DNA of 41,634 nucleotides from a virus, in IMG/VR virus record IMGVR_UViG_3300036768_000459, positions 1 through 41,634 of that record, one strand, 5' to 3'. Positions 20,518-38,528 of the stretch are shown in pieces. The notes under the pieces are model-generated. The model was not told the origin of the DNA and made no database searches. It worked only from the letters and a program-made list of their open reading frames with translations. How positions within the stretch are numbered: position 1 is the first letter of the stretch; every line of letters starts with the position of its first letter. The position numbers and the translations under genes were made by a program.

Positions 20518-21813
20518 ATGGATTTCACCAAGTTCAAAGAAAAGTTAGTCAAATGGTTGGGCGATATTTTCGCACTCAATGCGCCACGATATACGGTGTA
20601 TGCAATCGGTCTTTTGACGGTGGTTCTCGCGAACTGTCGCAAGGCTCCCGACGAAAAGCCCGATCCGCTACCAATTCCACCTACCCCGATCATTCCCGAT
20701 TTCCCTGACGGTTGGTTCCCGCCAACACCGGAGGACAAGCAATCGGCTGCCAACTGTCTCGCGGTGGCTCGTTTCGCGGATACCGAAGCTAACCAATTTG
20801 AGATCATCGGCGATGGTGAGGATGCCCCTGTTTGGCGATTAGCCACCAAAGGGCGGAAAATGGTAGGGCGTGGGCCTATCCCTACCTACGATCAGGGGCA
20901 AATAGGCTCGTGTGTTGGTTGTGGTTGGGCTGCTACGATCTCGGTTGCAATCGCTGCACAAATCGCCATCGGCAAGGCTCGTAACCAAGACGCTCCGACG
21001 ATCTCGCCCGAAGTGATTTACGCTACCAGTCGGGTAGACATCGGGAAGAATCGGGTAAGAGGTTCAGACGGATCGGTCGGGGCATGGGCTGCCGAAGCTA
21101 CAGCGAAGATCGGCGTATTGGCTCAAACAAAATACGGTCAACACGACCTCACGACTTACTCTGTCCCTCGATGCAAACAATGGGGAGATAACGGCATCCC
21201 TGCCGAGTTGAAAGAGCAAGCCAAAGCAAACCTAGCCAAAAACGTGACGAAGATTTCATCGGGCGATGAAGCCCGTAAAGCCCTCGCACAGGGTTACGCG
21301 ATCGCAGTCTGTTCTAATCAAGGTTTCGGCTCCTATGGGCAGGGCGGTGCGGTTCGAGACAAAGACGGGTTTCTTGCTGCTCGCGGGAATTGGAACCACT
21401 GTATGAGTATTATCGGCTACCGTGCGGATCGACCGGGTTTTCTCATCCTCAATTCGTGGGGCGAGGGTTGGGTAACAGGGCCGAAAGGGAAGTTCGACGA
21501 CATCCCCGAAGGATCATTCTGGGCTGAGTTTGCGGTCGTTGATCGGATGCTCAAACAGGATGATTCCTATTGCGTTTCGGGTACAACTGGTTTCCCGAAG
21601 CGACGAATCCCGCGTGATGATTGGTTTGTGAATAATGACCAAAAACCGGTTGATAATTTGGCATTCCAGGGGAATCGAAGTGAAAAGAATGTTGTTGCTA
21701 TTAATCGTGATTTCGTCGGGGTGTACATACAAAAGAACGTACAACTATCACACGTTGCCTATTATCGACGAGAGACCTACGACACTCGATTCTCCACCGA
21801 AACCGTTGCCTAA
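20518..21813 (+). CDS. Membrane-anchored papain-like cysteine protease (C1A)
   Basis: A 431-aa protein. A hydrophobic segment at residues ~25-39 ending L-A-N-C may be a membrane anchor (the lipobox is poor). A Pro-rich linker leads to a papain-fold domain: Gln126 and Cys132 in Y-D-Q-G-Q-I-G-S-C, His294 in N-W-N-H-C, Asn312 in L-N-S-W-G-E-G-W. All four catalytic positions are present, so it should be active. The last ~45 residues overlap another frame encoding a lipoprotein (21680-21862) and look unlike the rest, so the original C-terminus may have been shorter. Papain-like enzymes are rare in phages but common in planctomycetes. Lysis or processing of surface protein is a fair guess. Confidence 0.85.
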   Translation: MDFTKFKEKLVKWLGDIFALNAPRYTVYAIGLLTVVLANCRKAPDEKPDPLPIPPTPIIPDFPDGWFPPTPEDKQSAANCLAVARFADTEANQFEIIGDGEDAPVWRLATKGRKMVGRGPIPTYDQGQIGSCVGCGWAATISVAIAAQIAIGKARNQDAPTISPEVIYATSRVDIGKNRVRGSDGSVGAWAAEATAKIGVLAQTKYGQHDLTTYSVPRCKQWGDNGIPAELKEQAKANLAKNVTKISSGDEARKALAQGYAIAVCSNQGFGSYGQGGAVRDKDGFLAARGNWNHCMSIIGYRADRPGFLILNSWGEGWVTGPKGKFDDIPEGSFWAEFAVVDRMLKQDDSYCVSGTTGFPKRRIPRDDWFVNNDQKPVDNLAFQGNRSEKNVVAINRDFVGVYIQKNVQLSHVAYYRRETYDTRFSTETVA

Positions 21814-24383: not shown

Positions 24384-25106
24384 ATGCCGATTTTTGAATG
24401 CACTCAGCCGAAAATCGAAAATAATTCACAAAAATCTAAACGTCTCCGAAAATGCGTGCATTGTGGAGAGCGTCACCCTATTGAACGCACCTATCGATTA
24501 TGCAAATTCTGTTTTTTACGGACGAAAAAACGAATAAATCTTTACGAAGAATACATTTTGGCGGATCGGCCTGTCCCGCGGAAAGCTACGACCGCATCGC
24601 CCGGCCGAGAGGAAAAGATCCGGGTAATGATCCAACGGCTACGCCGTGGCGAAGCTCTGCACCACCCAGACGATAAACGAGACCAAGAAGGGGAATCAAG
24701 CCCCTTACCCGCGATGCTTGAACGGGCCGAACCTGTTTTGCGCGCAGCCAATCAAACAGGGGTCGAACGATTCGGGCAATACTACAGGGTGAGACCATTT
24801 TACAACGGCAAAAAACGAGATCAAGGGATTATCACGAAGGACGAAAAAGAAGCGGTAGCCGTTGCCGAGGCGTTCTGGCGTCGGACGTTCGGATTATTCG
24901 CCGACCATGCCGACCAAATGAAGGAAATTGACAAGACCGACCGGCAAATTAAACGACGCCGACAGCGATTGAAGAAAAAAGAACGGTTGCAGAAAAAGAA
25001 AATGCTTGCACAAATGCCAGAGCGTACGATATTCTCGGCTCTCGATGCCGAAGAAAGGGCAGTCGAAACAATCACACAAGGAACATTATTCTATGAACCC
25101 CTATAA
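24384..25106 (+). CDS. Zinc-ribbon protein with possible DNA-binding segment and coiled coil
   Basis: A 240-aa basic protein. Residues ~24-43 contain C-V-H-C and C-K-F-C, a four-cysteine zinc ribbon. The middle (Y-Y-R-V-R-P-F-Y-N-G-K-K followed by K-D-E-K-E-A-V-A-V-A-E) resembles the three-stranded AP2/integrase-arm DNA-binding fold, and residues ~185-215 are a strongly charged coiled coil. A DNA-associated role is likely. The gene overlaps the PAPS-reductase-like gene by 14 bases, so the two are probably co-translated. Confidence 0.68.
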   Translation: MPIFECTQPKIENNSQKSKRLRKCVHCGERHPIERTYRLCKFCFLRTKKRINLYEEYILADRPVPRKATTASPGREEKIRVMIQRLRRGEALHHPDDKRDQEGESSPLPAMLERAEPVLRAANQTGVERFGQYYRVRPFYNGKKRDQGIITKDEKEAVAVAEAFWRRTFGLFADHADQMKEIDKTDRQIKRRRQRLKKKERLQKKKMLAQMPERTIFSALDAEERAVETITQGTLFYEPL

Positions 25107-25902
25107 GATCGATCCTCCGTTTGTCGTCCAGTTTTCAGGGGGTCGCACGTCTGGATTTATGCTCCGTCAGATACTCGACGCCTACAACGGGAAGCTCCCA
25201 GATAATTCGCTAATCGTGTTTTGCAACACTGGGCTGGAACACCCCGAAACCCTCAAGTTCGTTGAGCGTGTGAGCATCGAATGGGGTGTAGATATTCACT
25301 GGTTAGAGTATCGACAAAAAAAGACCTTCGAGCGTGTGAGTTATGCGACCGCGTCCCGCAACGGGGAACCGTTTGCATTGCTGATTGAAGATAAGTTGAA
25401 CTATCTACCAAATGTGATGGTGCGGTTTTGTACGGTTGAAATGAAGATCAAGACCTCCGACAGATATTGTGCGACGTTTGGCTTTCTTGAATCGGGGTAC
25501 TCAGAAGCGATCGGACTTCGTGCCGATGAACCCCAACGGGTACGAAAGATCAAAGGAAGAGATCGTGATAACGCAGCCGTTTGCCCTATCCACGATGCAG
25601 GGCATACACTCGCAGACGTTGAGAGGTTTTGGGCAGCACAACCTTTCGACTTGGGTATTCCGAGTTATCTTGGAAACTGTGTCGGGTGTTTCCTCAAAGG
25701 TCGGAACAAGCTGGCAACGATAGCCCGAGAATCCCCTGAATCATTGCAATGGTGGGCCGAGCAAGAGACGGCGAGCGGAAACCGATTCCGAAAGGATGGG
25801 CCTTCCTACGCGATGTTTCTCGCACTCGCACAACGCAAAGGGCTGTTTGATGACATGCCCGAAACTGACTATCTGGAAGTAGCTTGTCACTGTACCGATT
25901 AG
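25093..25902 (+). CDS. PAPS reductase-like adenine nucleotide alpha-hydrolase protein
   Basis: A 269-aa protein with the PP-loop S-G-G-R-T-S-G at residues 15-21, the first signature of the PAPS reductase/ATP sulphurylase family, then F-C-N-T-G-L-E-H-P-E-T (35-55), R-F-C-T-V-E-M-K and G-N-C-V-G-C-F-L-K-G (near 195), a cysteine pair that could bind an iron-sulphur cluster. Close phage relatives are usually labelled phosphoadenosine phosphosulphate reductase; their chemistry in phages is unclear. DndC, of DNA phosphorothioation, belongs to the same group, so base or backbone modification is possible. No other dnd-type gene is present. It overlaps the zinc-ribbon gene. Confidence 0.83.
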   Translation: MNPYKIDPPFVVQFSGGRTSGFMLRQILDAYNGKLPDNSLIVFCNTGLEHPETLKFVERVSIEWGVDIHWLEYRQKKTFERVSYATASRNGEPFALLIEDKLNYLPNVMVRFCTVEMKIKTSDRYCATFGFLESGYSEAIGLRADEPQRVRKIKGRDRDNAAVCPIHDAGHTLADVERFWAAQPFDLGIPSYLGNCVGCFLKGRNKLATIARESPESLQWWAEQETASGNRFRKDGPSYAMFLALAQRKGLFDDMPETDYLEVACHCTD

Positions 25903-26130: not shown

Positions 26131-26159
26131 TTGACAGTATACTCGTTTGCGAGTATATT
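26131..26159 (+). promoter_or_regulatory. Sigma-70 promoter with overlapping operator palindrome
   Basis: TTGACA (26131-26136), a 17-bp spacer and TATATT (26154-26159) form the best consensus promoter in the genome. The spacer holds TATACTCG-TTTG-CGAGTATA (26138-26157), an 8-bp inverted repeat that reaches into the -10 box, so a repressor dimer bound there would block RNA polymerase. It drives 26217 onward. The small HTH protein at 28346 is one possible repressor. Confidence 0.85.
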
Positions 26160-26621: not shown

Positions 26622-26666
26622 AATACCCACCTCGCCAGATACACCAGCGAGATGGGTATTTTTTTT
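26622..26666 (+). terminator. Rho-independent terminator
   Basis: A 14-bp stem (26622-26635 with 26647-26660, one G-U pair), 11-base loop and a run of eight T. It closes the transcript begun at 26131. Confidence 0.92.
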
Positions 26667-26686
26667 CACGCATACGGAGAACAGAC

Positions 26687-27058
26687 ATGATCGCCACTGC
26701 CATCATTATGGAATTGACCGCATCACTCGCCTTCGCATGGGGTGATGGCGACGAAGCCGATCTGATTCCTATCGCAAACTGCCTTGTCGATGCGATGTAC
26801 GAACACGGAATTGATTGCCCATCGGGGCCGGTGCTGTCTGTTGGTCACGCTCGATTCCGTGAGGGTCATTTAGTCGATCATTTTGCGTGCCTAGTCAAGC
26901 TAGGCGAGGGTGATATTCATGTCAGTTGGAAATTTGTGGGTCATCCGATGGTCGGCGGTGGCGGTGTTGCTGATCGAGATATGTTGCTGATCGACTATCG
27001 GATTGAAATCCGCTCCACAGGCCAAATAATCGCATTCCGCCATGCGTCGGAATCCTAA
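26687..27058 (+). CDS. Hypothetical protein upstream of the ribozyme
   Basis: A 123-aa protein with a hydrophobic start (I-A-T-A-I-I-M-E-L-T-A-S-L-A-F-A-W), then D-G-D-E-A-D and a beta-rich C-terminal half. ATG 26687 has a GGAGA site 7 bases upstream. The stop codon TAA at 27056-27058 overlaps the 5' strand of the hammerhead ribozyme, so self-cleavage would leave this message ending right after the reading frame. Not recognised. Confidence 0.65.
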   Translation: MIATAIIMELTASLAFAWGDGDEADLIPIANCLVDAMYEHGIDCPSGPVLSVGHARFREGHLVDHFACLVKLGEGDIHVSWKFVGHPMVGGGGVADRDMLLIDYRIEIRSTGQIIAFRHASES

Positions 27059-27107
27059 CCCACTGACGAGCCGGTGAGATTCCGGCGAAACCCTTCGGGG
27101 TCTGGGT
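27058..27107 (+). ncRNA. Type I hammerhead ribozyme
   Basis: All core positions match. CTGACGA is at 27063-27069; stem II is GCCGG 27070-27074 with CCGGC 27082-27086; GAA is at 27087-27089; stem III is ACCC 27090-27093 with GGGT 27098-27101, closed by TTCG. The cleaved C is 27102, and stem I is ACCCA 27058-27062 with TGGGT 27103-27107. The open ends are in stem I, so it is type I, and cleavage is expected between 27102 and 27103. A further hairpin (GCCAC 27116-27120 with GTGGC 27132-27136) and an AAGGA site before ATG 27149 lie downstream. Hammerheads are known from phages; this one would trim the 3' end of the 26687 message. Confidence 0.9.
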
Positions 27108-27148
27108 AATACAAAGCCACCCCCAAGAGAAGTGGCAAGGAATCATTT

Positions 27149-27366
27149 ATGGAAATTCCTGAAAAAAAATGTCATGATCCCGACCCACAAGGTGTAAACC
27201 AGCTGATCTCAGAGAATTCTTGCGAGAATTCGATCGTGATAATGGGGGATTCGCACTCGTGGCGAACCTGCTTGGCATTCGAGCCAACACTCTTTCAAAG
27301 ATGTGGGAACGAAAAAAGCTGTTACTTGCGGAACTGGACTATTTCAAGGATTTGTTAGACCATTAA
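27149..27366 (+). pseudogene. Frame-broken small HTH gene after the ribozyme
   Basis: ATG 27149 has an AAGGA site, but that frame soon becomes unlike a protein and ends at 27358. In the -1 frame, open from 27178 to 27366, 62 residues read like a small DNA-binding protein: D-L-R-E-F-L-R-E-F-D-R-D-N-G-G-F, then A-N-L-L-G-I-R-A-N-T-L-S-K-M-W. That frame has no ATG; a TTG at 27220 is possible. A frame change after 27178 would join the two. It is a disrupted regulator, a sequencing indel or, less likely, a recoded gene. Confidence 0.55.
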
Positions 27367-32654: not shown

Positions 32655-32838
32655 ACCACAGTTAGAGCCTCTGCGAATGCTGACAGGGGCCGAAGTGTGT
32701 CAGTACCTCGGCATAAGCCCAAGCCATTTGGCCGAGCTGCGAGCAACAAAGAAAATCACCGCCTACCGGATTGGTAGGGGTTTTCAGTTCACACCGTCAG
32801 ACATTGAAAAATACTTGGAGCAACAGAAAGAGCAATGA
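32641..32838 (+). CDS. Excisionase/MerR-type helix-turn-helix protein
   Basis: A 65-aa protein with the HTH_17 pattern L-T-G-A-E-V-C-Q-Y-L-G-I-S-P-S-H-L (residues ~14-30), then I-T-A-Y-R-I-G-R-G-F-Q-F, as in excisionases and small MerR-like regulators. Such proteins bend DNA in excision or regulate early promoters. No integrase is visible in this genome, so a regulatory role is more likely. It overlaps both neighbours, including 4 bases with 32835. Confidence 0.78.
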   Translation: MKTTKPQLEPLRMLTGAEVCQYLGISPSHLAELRATKKITAYRIGRGFQFTPSDIEKYLEQQKEQ

Positions 32839-33611
32839 CTACCGCACTAGCAAACACACAGAAAGCCGAAATCTACGCCCGACTCGCAACAACTGGCGAT
32901 ACGTCCAAACTCTCGCCAGTCGAGAAAGCCCAATACTATCGCATGGCGTGCGATGTGGCAGGGTTGAATCCTGAATTCCAACCGTTCGAGTTTATTTCCT
33001 TTCAGGGGAAAGAACGATTGTACGCCACAAAGAGAGCTACCGACCAACTCCGTTTGATTCACGGCCTTTCAACGGAGATCGTATCACGCACAGAAACCGA
33101 TGGGCTACTCGAAATCGCCGTGAGGGTTTTCGACAAGTCGGGCCGTTCCGAGATCGAATACGGGATTCTCTCGATCAAAAACCTTACGGGCGATGCACGG
33201 GCCAACGCCGTCATGAAATGCCTTACCAAAGCCAAACGACGTGCTACGTTGGCGTTCTGCGGTCTGGGAATTCTCGACGAAACCGAAGTCGAGACGATTC
33301 CTAACGCGGTTGTAACCTCGACGCCTACCCCTGCAATCGCTGCACCGCAAGCGATAACTGTGCCAGTGCAGGCCGAGGAAGCCCAAGCCGAAACCCCTGC
33401 AACTCCCGAAGCCGACCCCGACGCGATATTCCGTAAGGCGGTGGAGATCGTCACGAAATACTACGTCGAACTGAATGATAGTGGGAAAGCGAACTTTGCC
33501 AAACGCCTTGTAGCTAAATTCGGAGCAAGGAGCATTGACGACCTGACCGTTCCGCAGATTGTCGAGCTTGCAACCATCATCAAAGACGCCCAAACGGGGA
33601 AAACCAAGTGA
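32835..33611 (+). CDS. Single-strand annealing-type recombination protein
   Basis: A 258-aa protein. The first ~130 residues have the pattern Y-Y-R-M-A-C-D-V-A-G-L-N-P, then P-F-E-F-I-S-F-Q-G-K-E-R-L-Y-A-T, A-T-D-Q-L-R and K-A-K-R-R-A-T-L-A-F-C-G-L-G. This matches a family of phage proteins placed near RecT/Rad52-type annealing functions. An Ala/Pro-rich linker (~155-195) leads to a small helical tail domain. With the helicase, ssDNA-binding protein and RusA it would support recombination-dependent replication. It overlaps the previous and next genes by 4 bases. Confidence 0.7.
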   Translation: MTTALANTQKAEIYARLATTGDTSKLSPVEKAQYYRMACDVAGLNPEFQPFEFISFQGKERLYATKRATDQLRLIHGLSTEIVSRTETDGLLEIAVRVFDKSGRSEIEYGILSIKNLTGDARANAVMKCLTKAKRRATLAFCGLGILDETEVETIPNAVVTSTPTPAIAAPQAITVPVQAEEAQAETPATPEADPDAIFRKAVEIVTKYYVELNDSGKANFAKRLVAKFGARSIDDLTVPQIVELATIIKDAQTGKTK

Positions 33612-37154: not shown

Positions 37155-37531
37155 TGATTATCCAACAGATAATAGACGGCAAAATCAGTTGGCTAACAGC
37201 GTCAGATGTGTTGCAGAATTTGATAGAGGCCACAGACAAGGGCGACGAGAAAGCAAAAAGTGTCGCCCGTGATTTGTGGCAAGTTTACAAAGACCAGTTT
37301 GTTAGCGATCTGGTCTTTTTTCTTCGACACGCTGCCGAGCAAAGCCGACTGGACGAGATATTCGGACAAACGGCACTAGGCAGAGCCTGTGCGGATTTGC
37401 AAACGCTCGTCAAACAACAACAAAACCAAATAAATGAACTGGCCTTAGAAATAGTCAAACTCCAAGCGAAAGGGAACAACAGTGGGTATCCTCGACGAAG
37501 CACGCAAACGACTCGCACAGCAGCAAACTAA
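37154..37531 (+). CDS. Hypothetical helical protein of the replication operon
   Basis: A 125-aa mainly helical protein with its start overlapping the previous stop and its last ~50 bases overlapping the ATPase gene. Residues ~85-105 (Q-T-L-V-K-Q-Q-Q-N-Q-I-N-E-L-A-L) suggest a coiled coil. No known domain. Its location points to an accessory role in replication. Confidence 0.6.
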   Translation: MIIQQIIDGKISWLTASDVLQNLIEATDKGDEKAKSVARDLWQVYKDQFVSDLVFFLRHAAEQSRLDEIFGQTALGRACADLQTLVKQQQNQINELALEIVKLQAKGNNSGYPRRSTQTTRTAAN

Positions 37532-38528
37532 CGATACTCCACTCAAAAACCCGGATACCAAACCTCGAACTCTCGACCATATCACCACGATAGCCGACCT
37601 GAAACAGGCCGGTGCAAAACTCGAATGGCTCTGGAAGGGTTGGATACAAAAGGGTGTCCTCTCATGTCTCGCAGCACAAGGCGGAACGGGCAAAACGCGA
37701 TTTTGTGCCGATCTTGTACGCCGTATGGCTCATCGTATCGAGTGGCCGGATAAATCCCCGCACAACCTCGACGCCGACGATGTGCGTACCTTGTGGGTTG
37801 TGGCCGACAACAACCACGCAGAACTCACCGAAATTGCGACATCGTTCGAGATCGAAGGTAACGTCTTTGTCAACAGTTGGAACGATAGCGTCGAGAACCT
37901 TTATGGCGGGGTTAATCTCGATGACGCAGGGGAAATCAAAGACCTCGAAGAACGGATCGAATTGCTCAAACCGACGATAGTCTTTATCGACACGGTTGGG
38001 AACTCGACAGACAAAAATCTTTCTCGACAGGAAGACGCAAAGGCTTACTATGCCCCGTTGCAGATTGTCGCACGAAAGTACAACGTTCCAATCGTGTGCA
38101 TTACTCACCTATCGGCATCGGGTGAAGCGTTAGGCCGACGTGTACGCGAGAAAGTGAGAACGCTCATTTATCTCTCGAAGCCCGATCCCCACCAGATGGA
38201 TCGGCGGAAATTGTGGGTTGATAAATCGAACTCAGTTCTTCCCCCTGCCCTCGGTGTTACGATGGGAGACAAGGGAAACGAGTACGATTTCAACCCGCCC
38301 GTCGAACCCGACGAATTTGGGCCACCTGCAAAGAAGACAAAACGGTCTGACGCTTGTCTCGAATGCCTTACGGTGTTTTTGGCCAATGGCCCTAAGCCTT
38401 TGACGGAGATTTACGCATTTGCACAAGAAAACAATTATGGGAAAAACACCCTCTACAAACTGCGAGACGAGGGGCATTTTGTCGAGATTGAGAAGAACGG
38501 CAAAAAATACTGGAGCCTACCCGAATGA
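37482..38528 (+). CDS. RecA-fold AAA ATPase (RepA/AAA_25-like)
   Basis: A 348-aa ATPase: Walker A A-A-Q-G-G-T-G-K-T-R-F (~64-72), Walker B P-T-I-V-F-I-D-T-V-G-N (~165-175), then I-V-C-I-T-H-L-S-A-S (sensor strand) and a basic C-terminal domain with a winged-helix-like end. This is the hexameric RepA-like helicase group used by plasmids and phages for replication. The GTG start at 37482 is within the previous gene and has a weak ribosome binding site. No separate primase is visible. Confidence 0.8.
   Translation: MGILDEARKRLAQQQTNDTPLKNPDTKPRTLDHITTIADLKQAGAKLEWLWKGWIQKGVLSCLAAQGGTGKTRFCADLVRRMAHRIEWPDKSPHNLDADDVRTLWVVADNNHAELTEIATSFEIEGNVFVNSWNDSVENLYGGVNLDDAGEIKDLEERIELLKPTIVFIDTVGNSTDKNLSRQEDAKAYYAPLQIVARKYNVPIVCITHLSASGEALGRRVREKVRTLIYLSKPDPHQMDRRKLWVDKSNSVLPPALGVTMGDKGNEYDFNPPVEPDEFGPPAKKTKRSDACLECLTVFLANGPKPLTEIYAFAQENNYGKNTLYKLRDEGHFVEIEKNGKKYWSLPE

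Follow-up and report, generated by a model that had tools for sequence, protein, structure and literature searches.

What does a hammerhead ribozyme do when it begins in the stop codon of a small phage gene? The question is raised by a locus in the viral record IMGVR_UViG_3300036768_000459, analyzed here as one stretch of 41,634 nucleotides (the window), for which a type I hammerhead had been predicted in the accessory region from the sequence alone.

The hammerhead and its surroundings

Reading of the sequence confirms that positions 27058-27107 of the plus strand hold a complete type I hammerhead of 50 bases with all core bases, so that the observation as such is real. The coordinates, the UUCG-capped stem III and the predicted cut after C27102 are exactly those of the original prediction. 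All defining positions are present, namely C3 U4 G5 A6 N7 G8 A9, G12 A13 A14, A15.1, U16.1 and H17, and helices I, II and III comprise 5, 5 and 4 pairs, respectively, helix I being open and the other two closed by loops (Table 1). In helix III, two of the four pairs covary, and A15.1-U16.1 is the pair adjacent to the core. The element was also correctly placed in the accessory region and at the stop codon of the open reading frame (ORF) 26687-27058: the last A of this codon makes the outermost pair of helix I.

Table 1. Positions of the hammerhead, its parts and the neighboring features in the window.
Feature	Position	Strand	Description
Terminator-like hairpin and T tract	26623-26667	+	ATACCCA-C-CTCGC / GCGAG-A-TGGGTAT; found by eye, loop exceeds the range of the hairpin scan
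Upstream ORF	26687-27058	+	123 aa; ATG preceded by SD-like GGAG; stop codon TAA, 27056-27058
Competitor helix	27045-27087	+	10-bp pairing possible between the last ORF codons (27045-27054) and loop plus helix II (27078-27087)
Helix I, 5' strand	27058-27062	+	ACCCA; first base is last base of the stop; covaries in alignment A1
Catalytic core C3-A9	27063-27069	+	CUGACGA
Helix II	27070-27086	+	5 bp, GCCGG (27070-27074) with CCGGC (27082-27086); covaries
Loop II	27075-27081	+	7 nt, UGAGAUU
Possible 3-bp pseudoknot	27079-27110	+	AUU (27079-27081) with AAU (27108-27110); class-wide covariation, here only 3 A-U pairs
Core G12 A13 A14	27087-27089	+	GAA
Helix III	27090-27101	+	4 bp, ACCC (27090-27093) with GGGU (27098-27101)
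Helix III loop	27094-27097	+	UUCG
Predicted cleavage	between C27102 (C17) and U27103	+	Position given by the established consensus of hammerheads
Helix I, 3' strand	27103-27107	+	UGGGU; would form the new 5' end of the downstream RNA
Downstream leader	27103-27148	+	46 nt; 5-bp hairpin; SD-like AAGGA before ATG 27149
Downstream ORF	27149-27358	+	69 aa from ATG; reading frame uncertain

A motif of this quality is not expected by chance. A strict descriptor with minimum helix lengths of 4, 3 and 4 pairs, applied in all three permutations to both strands, matched once in the window and in none of 300 order-1 Markov windows; at a looser setting of 3, 2 and 3 pairs, 0.04 type I matches occurred per simulated window. 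Neither a second hammerhead nor any other ribozyme was found in the window at the settings used.

The covariance-model search for hammerhead I that had been proposed as a check was not supportive. Rfam 15 reports at gathering score only a tRNA in the window and no hammerhead. Hammerhead_1 (RF00163) gave no match to the window, and Hammerhead_3 (RF00008) scored 29 bits in a shifted alignment, under its gathering cut-off. Both families have the same catalytic core as the window element. Six further phage contigs picked for clear hammerheads, three of them with arrays, likewise fail to reach the Rfam 15 gathering score. As these clear hammerheads fail as well, the misses across the seven sources scanned (the window, L024, L035, L039, L180, L104 and L167) reflect a fault in the Rfam models. 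A covariance model built from our own alignment A1, described below, scores the window element with 70.3 bits, a value favorable by construction because the element belongs to the training set.

Neither ORF flanking the ribozyme has a family match in Pfam or PHROG, and for ORF 26687-27058 no relative was found in viral contigs either. Within 27149-27366, a frame overlapping the ATG 27149 ORF resembles a helix-turn-helix protein (LREFDRDNGGFALVANLLGIRANTLSKMWERKK) and has no ATG and no Pfam match; the two frames together suggest a possible frameshift or unusual start. Just 5' of ORF 26687-27058, the arms ATACCCA/TGGGTAT of the terminator-like hairpin resemble helix I (ACCCA/TGGGT). Little can be built on two promoter-like sites (26131-26159 and 27003-27030), as the region contains nine such sites compared with 5.5 expected (sd 2.6). 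Further upstream, 25006-25902 encodes a phosphoadenosine phosphosulfate reductase-like protein (PHROG 424) of the moron/auxiliary metabolic gene category.

Relatives in other phages

To search for relatives, the core and the UUCG-capped stem III were fixed while the remaining stem bases were left free. This pattern matched 66 IMG/VR contigs, compared with about one expected from a rough estimate of the collection size. Helices I, II and III are complementary in nearly all of them; six with a poor or broken stem (L018, L031, L032, L045, L065 and L067) were excluded from alignment A1, which combines 22 varied hammerheads, including that of the window, hand-picked after their stems had been seen to pair. 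In A1, 94.8% of cells pair; shuffling lowers this to 68% and sliding the partners to 27-46%. Both sides are changed in 77 cells, compared with 22 in shuffles, and such double changes occur at 11 of the 14 pairs. The 94.8% is partly a product of selection, and the informative parts are the count of double changes and the collapse on sliding.

Seven contigs of the hammerhead set (G005, G014, G016, G017, G018, G020 and G021) share the protein encoded at 32835-33611 of the window with 44-46% identity and span 37-41 kb, except G014 with 20 kb. Six of the seven also encode the papain-family peptidase of the window (20518-21813, about 42%), which was not seen in G016, and six the AAA_25 ATPase (37482-38528, 40-42%), which was not seen in the searched part of G021. 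In all seven, a hammerhead lies about 1 kb before the homologue of the 32835 protein, and between that gene and the peptidase where both are seen. The gene order of G017 fits only if this contig is circular, since its hammerhead and the homologue lie near opposite ends. The window shows the same gene order at a longer distance. Phages that share the peptidase, recombination and ATPase genes of the window carry a hammerhead at the syntenic place, whereas the small genes on its flanks differ from contig to contig. Lack of stem covariation in related phages had been named in advance as evidence against the element; A1 and these syntenic hammerheads both speak in its favor. That the element is a chance hit or a decayed motif without function, as its score under the Rfam gathering cut-off might be taken to mean, is hardly credible given the strict null, the covariation and the synteny, and the six clear hammerhead contigs that fail Rfam in the same way.

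Assignment to a probable planctomycete phage is moderately supported by sequence comparison. Among genome contigs, the search with the major head protein found a single relative, in a Gemmataceae genome (32% identity); it also found one close contig, which has no match to the accessory genes around the ribozyme. Among 392 Planctomycetota genomes, the hammerhead pattern gave one weak match.

Two wider scans enlarged the set to at least 232 type I hammerheads, 200 of which have an independent upstream context. Among the matches listed, the 412 flanking proteins fall into 264 clusters and are mostly unrelated; 31 clusters have members on both hammerhead sides, 23 of these including a gene between two hammerheads, and 15 clusters have homologues whose side relative to a hammerhead changes between loci. 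Contigs with multiple hammerheads carry two to five on one strand, some with one small gene between them, and a single ORF fills 22 of the 39 inter-hammerhead intervals that measure no more than 700 nt (again among the matches listed). Contigs L180, L234 and L167 each hold five type I hammerheads in about 2-2.5 kb, with one small gene in some of the intervals.

Such exchange of neighbors might suggest that the 40-odd conserved bases at gene ends are mainly a recombination seam for swapping small genes, given that the hammerhead stays while the genes around it change and that 15 clusters switch sides by locus. We consider this improbable: a DNA seam would have no need for the covariation of stems and pseudoknot, and helix I varies both between and within arrays. 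Very improbable is a second possibility, in which neighboring type I hammerheads that have helix I in common would free an RNA whose ends re-ligate to a circular message. About half of the consecutive array pairs do have a compatible helix I, but among the matches listed this is the case for 36 of 72 consecutive pairs and for 82 of 166 other pairs on the same contig, i.e., there is no enrichment. Moreover, the window has one hammerhead only, and circular or spliced products have been sought without being detected (PMC3088659).

The pseudoknot between loop II and the 3' tail depends on the length of helix I. In the class with a short helix I (4-5 bp), to which the window element belongs, at least 4 bp can form in 44% of 86 distinct hammerheads compared with 13% when tails are swapped, and at least 3 bp in 73% compared with 42% (86 distinct pairs; both among the matches listed). 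With a 6-bp helix I, the pseudoknot is rare (4%) and the tail is often CAAC among the matches listed.

Stop-codon placement and proposed message processing

The link to a stop codon was regarded as special in the original prediction. It is present in the window, and it proves to be the usual arrangement across type I phage hammerheads rather than a local curiosity. Taking as upstream ORF the longest one nearby with at least 40 aa, called mechanically and not from annotation, we found that 130 of 187 independent type I hammerheads among the matches listed have its end within -4 to +9 nt of the ribozyme 5' edge, a count that takes in stops at the core UGA; at the mirrored antisense edge, the same interval holds an ORF end in 13. 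Random positions give the same picture, yet they ignore the UGA fixed in the core. Independently of this UGA, the stop of the upstream ORF precedes the core by 4-9 nt in 84 of 198 independent cases; the UGA itself serves as stop in 38 of the 198, and the stop lies 0-3 nt before the core in eight (all among the matches listed). Stops at 3-9 nt are TAA in 48, TAG in 23 and TGA in 14 of the matches listed; as all three are used, no single triplet is fixed. On the other side of the cut, an ORF with an SD-like sequence starts within 150 nt in 132 of 181 cases among the matches listed, at a median of 27.5 nt.

Terminators, too, tend to follow stop codons, and stop proximity alone is therefore no proof of coupling to translation. 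The main text of PMC3088659 contains no mention of stop codons, and no prior report of this placement was recognized in the searched literature, which covers few subscription journals or preprints.

Our preferred reading, to which we assign a probability of about 0.7, is that the type I hammerhead acts as message punctuation and cuts polycistronic phage RNA just after a stop codon. Phage type I hammerheads would in this way probably divide long messages into single-gene pieces. In the window, RNA polymerase would transcribe the small genes of the accessory operon as one RNA, which the hammerhead would cut once, 44 nt past the upstream stop codon. The upstream message would keep its whole ORF and stop and would end just after the UUCG hairpin in a 2',3'-cyclic phosphate; because the hammerhead is of type I, nearly the whole catalytic fold, all except the 3' strand of helix I, would be left on this RNA. 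The downstream message would start with a 5'-hydroxyl and a 46-nt leader with its own ribosome-binding site. A position on the stop would give the shortest upstream 3' end without truncation of the protein, so that a small gene could be inserted in a transcript as an independent unit.

Message punctuation is favored by the complete motif, the covariation, the synteny, the stop-codon position and the single-gene units that occur in some of the arrays of other phages. Trimming of the upstream message and freeing of the downstream 5' end, as originally proposed, appears to be the best mechanism by analogy. Likewise by analogy, we infer activity, RNA end chemistry and an effect on stability or translation in the window; comparable tandem hammerheads of bacterial genomes cleave themselves in vitro, and those of one set also in E. 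coli (PMC3088659). Against punctuation counts that the compactness of phage genomes could place the element against the stop without any function. So do the single hammerhead of the window, its possible pseudoknot of three A-U pairs only, the doubtful frame of the downstream ORF and the folding energy with upstream sequence, given below.

Folding bears on a further possibility, namely that cleavage is gated by ribosomes. A ribosome terminating at UAA 27056-27058 would cover helix I and the core and permit cleavage only when the upstream gene is untranslated; alternatively, ribosomes would release the ribozyme from an upstream competitor. Each small gene and its ribozyme would then be a self-releasing unit, cut only when ribosomes allow. 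The frequent stops at -4 to +9 (130 of 187) and at the core UGA (38 of 198), both among the matches listed, are compatible with such gating, as is the 10-bp competitor helix, in which loop and helix II may be sequestered by the last codons; the same CGGAAU may pair instead with AUUCCG at 27034-27039. In the energy model, rival folds are preferred over the window hammerhead, which together with its upstream 40 nt lies 5.8 kcal/mol above the ensemble through the 10-bp competitor, which makes the element an unfavorable member of its class. However, this puts the window competitor at the 90th percentile of shuffles only. Over the 200 independent contexts, the median disturbance of the fold by the 40 nt upstream is 1.74 kcal/mol for native sequence compared with 2.52 when shuffled (p about 1e-8, among the matches listed), which fits selection for folding. 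As native upstream sequence interferes less than shuffled, competitors are no family trait, and an upstream competitor as a general switch was rejected on this opposite trend. Compactness, moreover, accounts equally well for the stop position, and we regard ribosome-gated cleavage as rather unlikely.

Relation to described hammerheads

Hammerheads were correctly stated to be known in phages: a 2011 study described those that flank small genes (PMC3088659). As these include type I forms, a clean type I element in a phage is less unusual than had been supposed; the kind is known, and the window element is a new member. With the phage and prophage hammerheads of Perreault et al. (2011; PMC3088659) it shares small-gene neighbors of inconstant identity, which characterize their clusters; the pseudoknot described there between stems I and II has a possible counterpart of three A-U pairs in the window. 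The same study proposed that long phage RNA is cut into messages of gene length. In contrast to those clusters, in which several hammerheads lie close together, the window has a single element with a weak contact and no array. The triple hammerhead around ardA of Agrobacterium tumefaciens likewise combines hammerheads with small phage-type genes; it is a tandem arrangement active in vitro and in E. coli (PMC3088659), while the window candidate is single-copy. HHphage of the haloviruses HF1/HF2 also lies a short distance upstream of a gene, with a transcript 5' end mapped at most 3 nt from the cut (PMC3088659), but it has a variant core and belongs to an archaeal virus, whereas the core in the window follows the consensus.

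A 2017 review called the function of prokaryote and phage hammerheads an open question (PMC6155905). The position rule found here (upstream stop codon, about 28 nt before the next start) recasts it as a few testable claims and offers a signal for annotation where Rfam 15, on the contigs tried, reported none; the window element ties this rule to syntenic related phages with a probable planctomycete host.

DNA similarity to the window element gave weak hits only among isolate phages, and Pelagibacter phages were found with other hammerhead sequences as queries. Hammerhead-like elements whose stem III is long occur in Pelagivirus S35C6 and in Jormungand EXVC012P, an isolate Pelagibacter phage (L242 and L243, both at 1500-1565). 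Inspection by eye places before each of them a tiny ORF (2-4 codons) that has a purine-rich sequence resembling a ribosome-binding site. In Halovirus HVTV-1 (L241, 704-738), a hammerhead-like core with a stem III of about 2 bp lies between genes.
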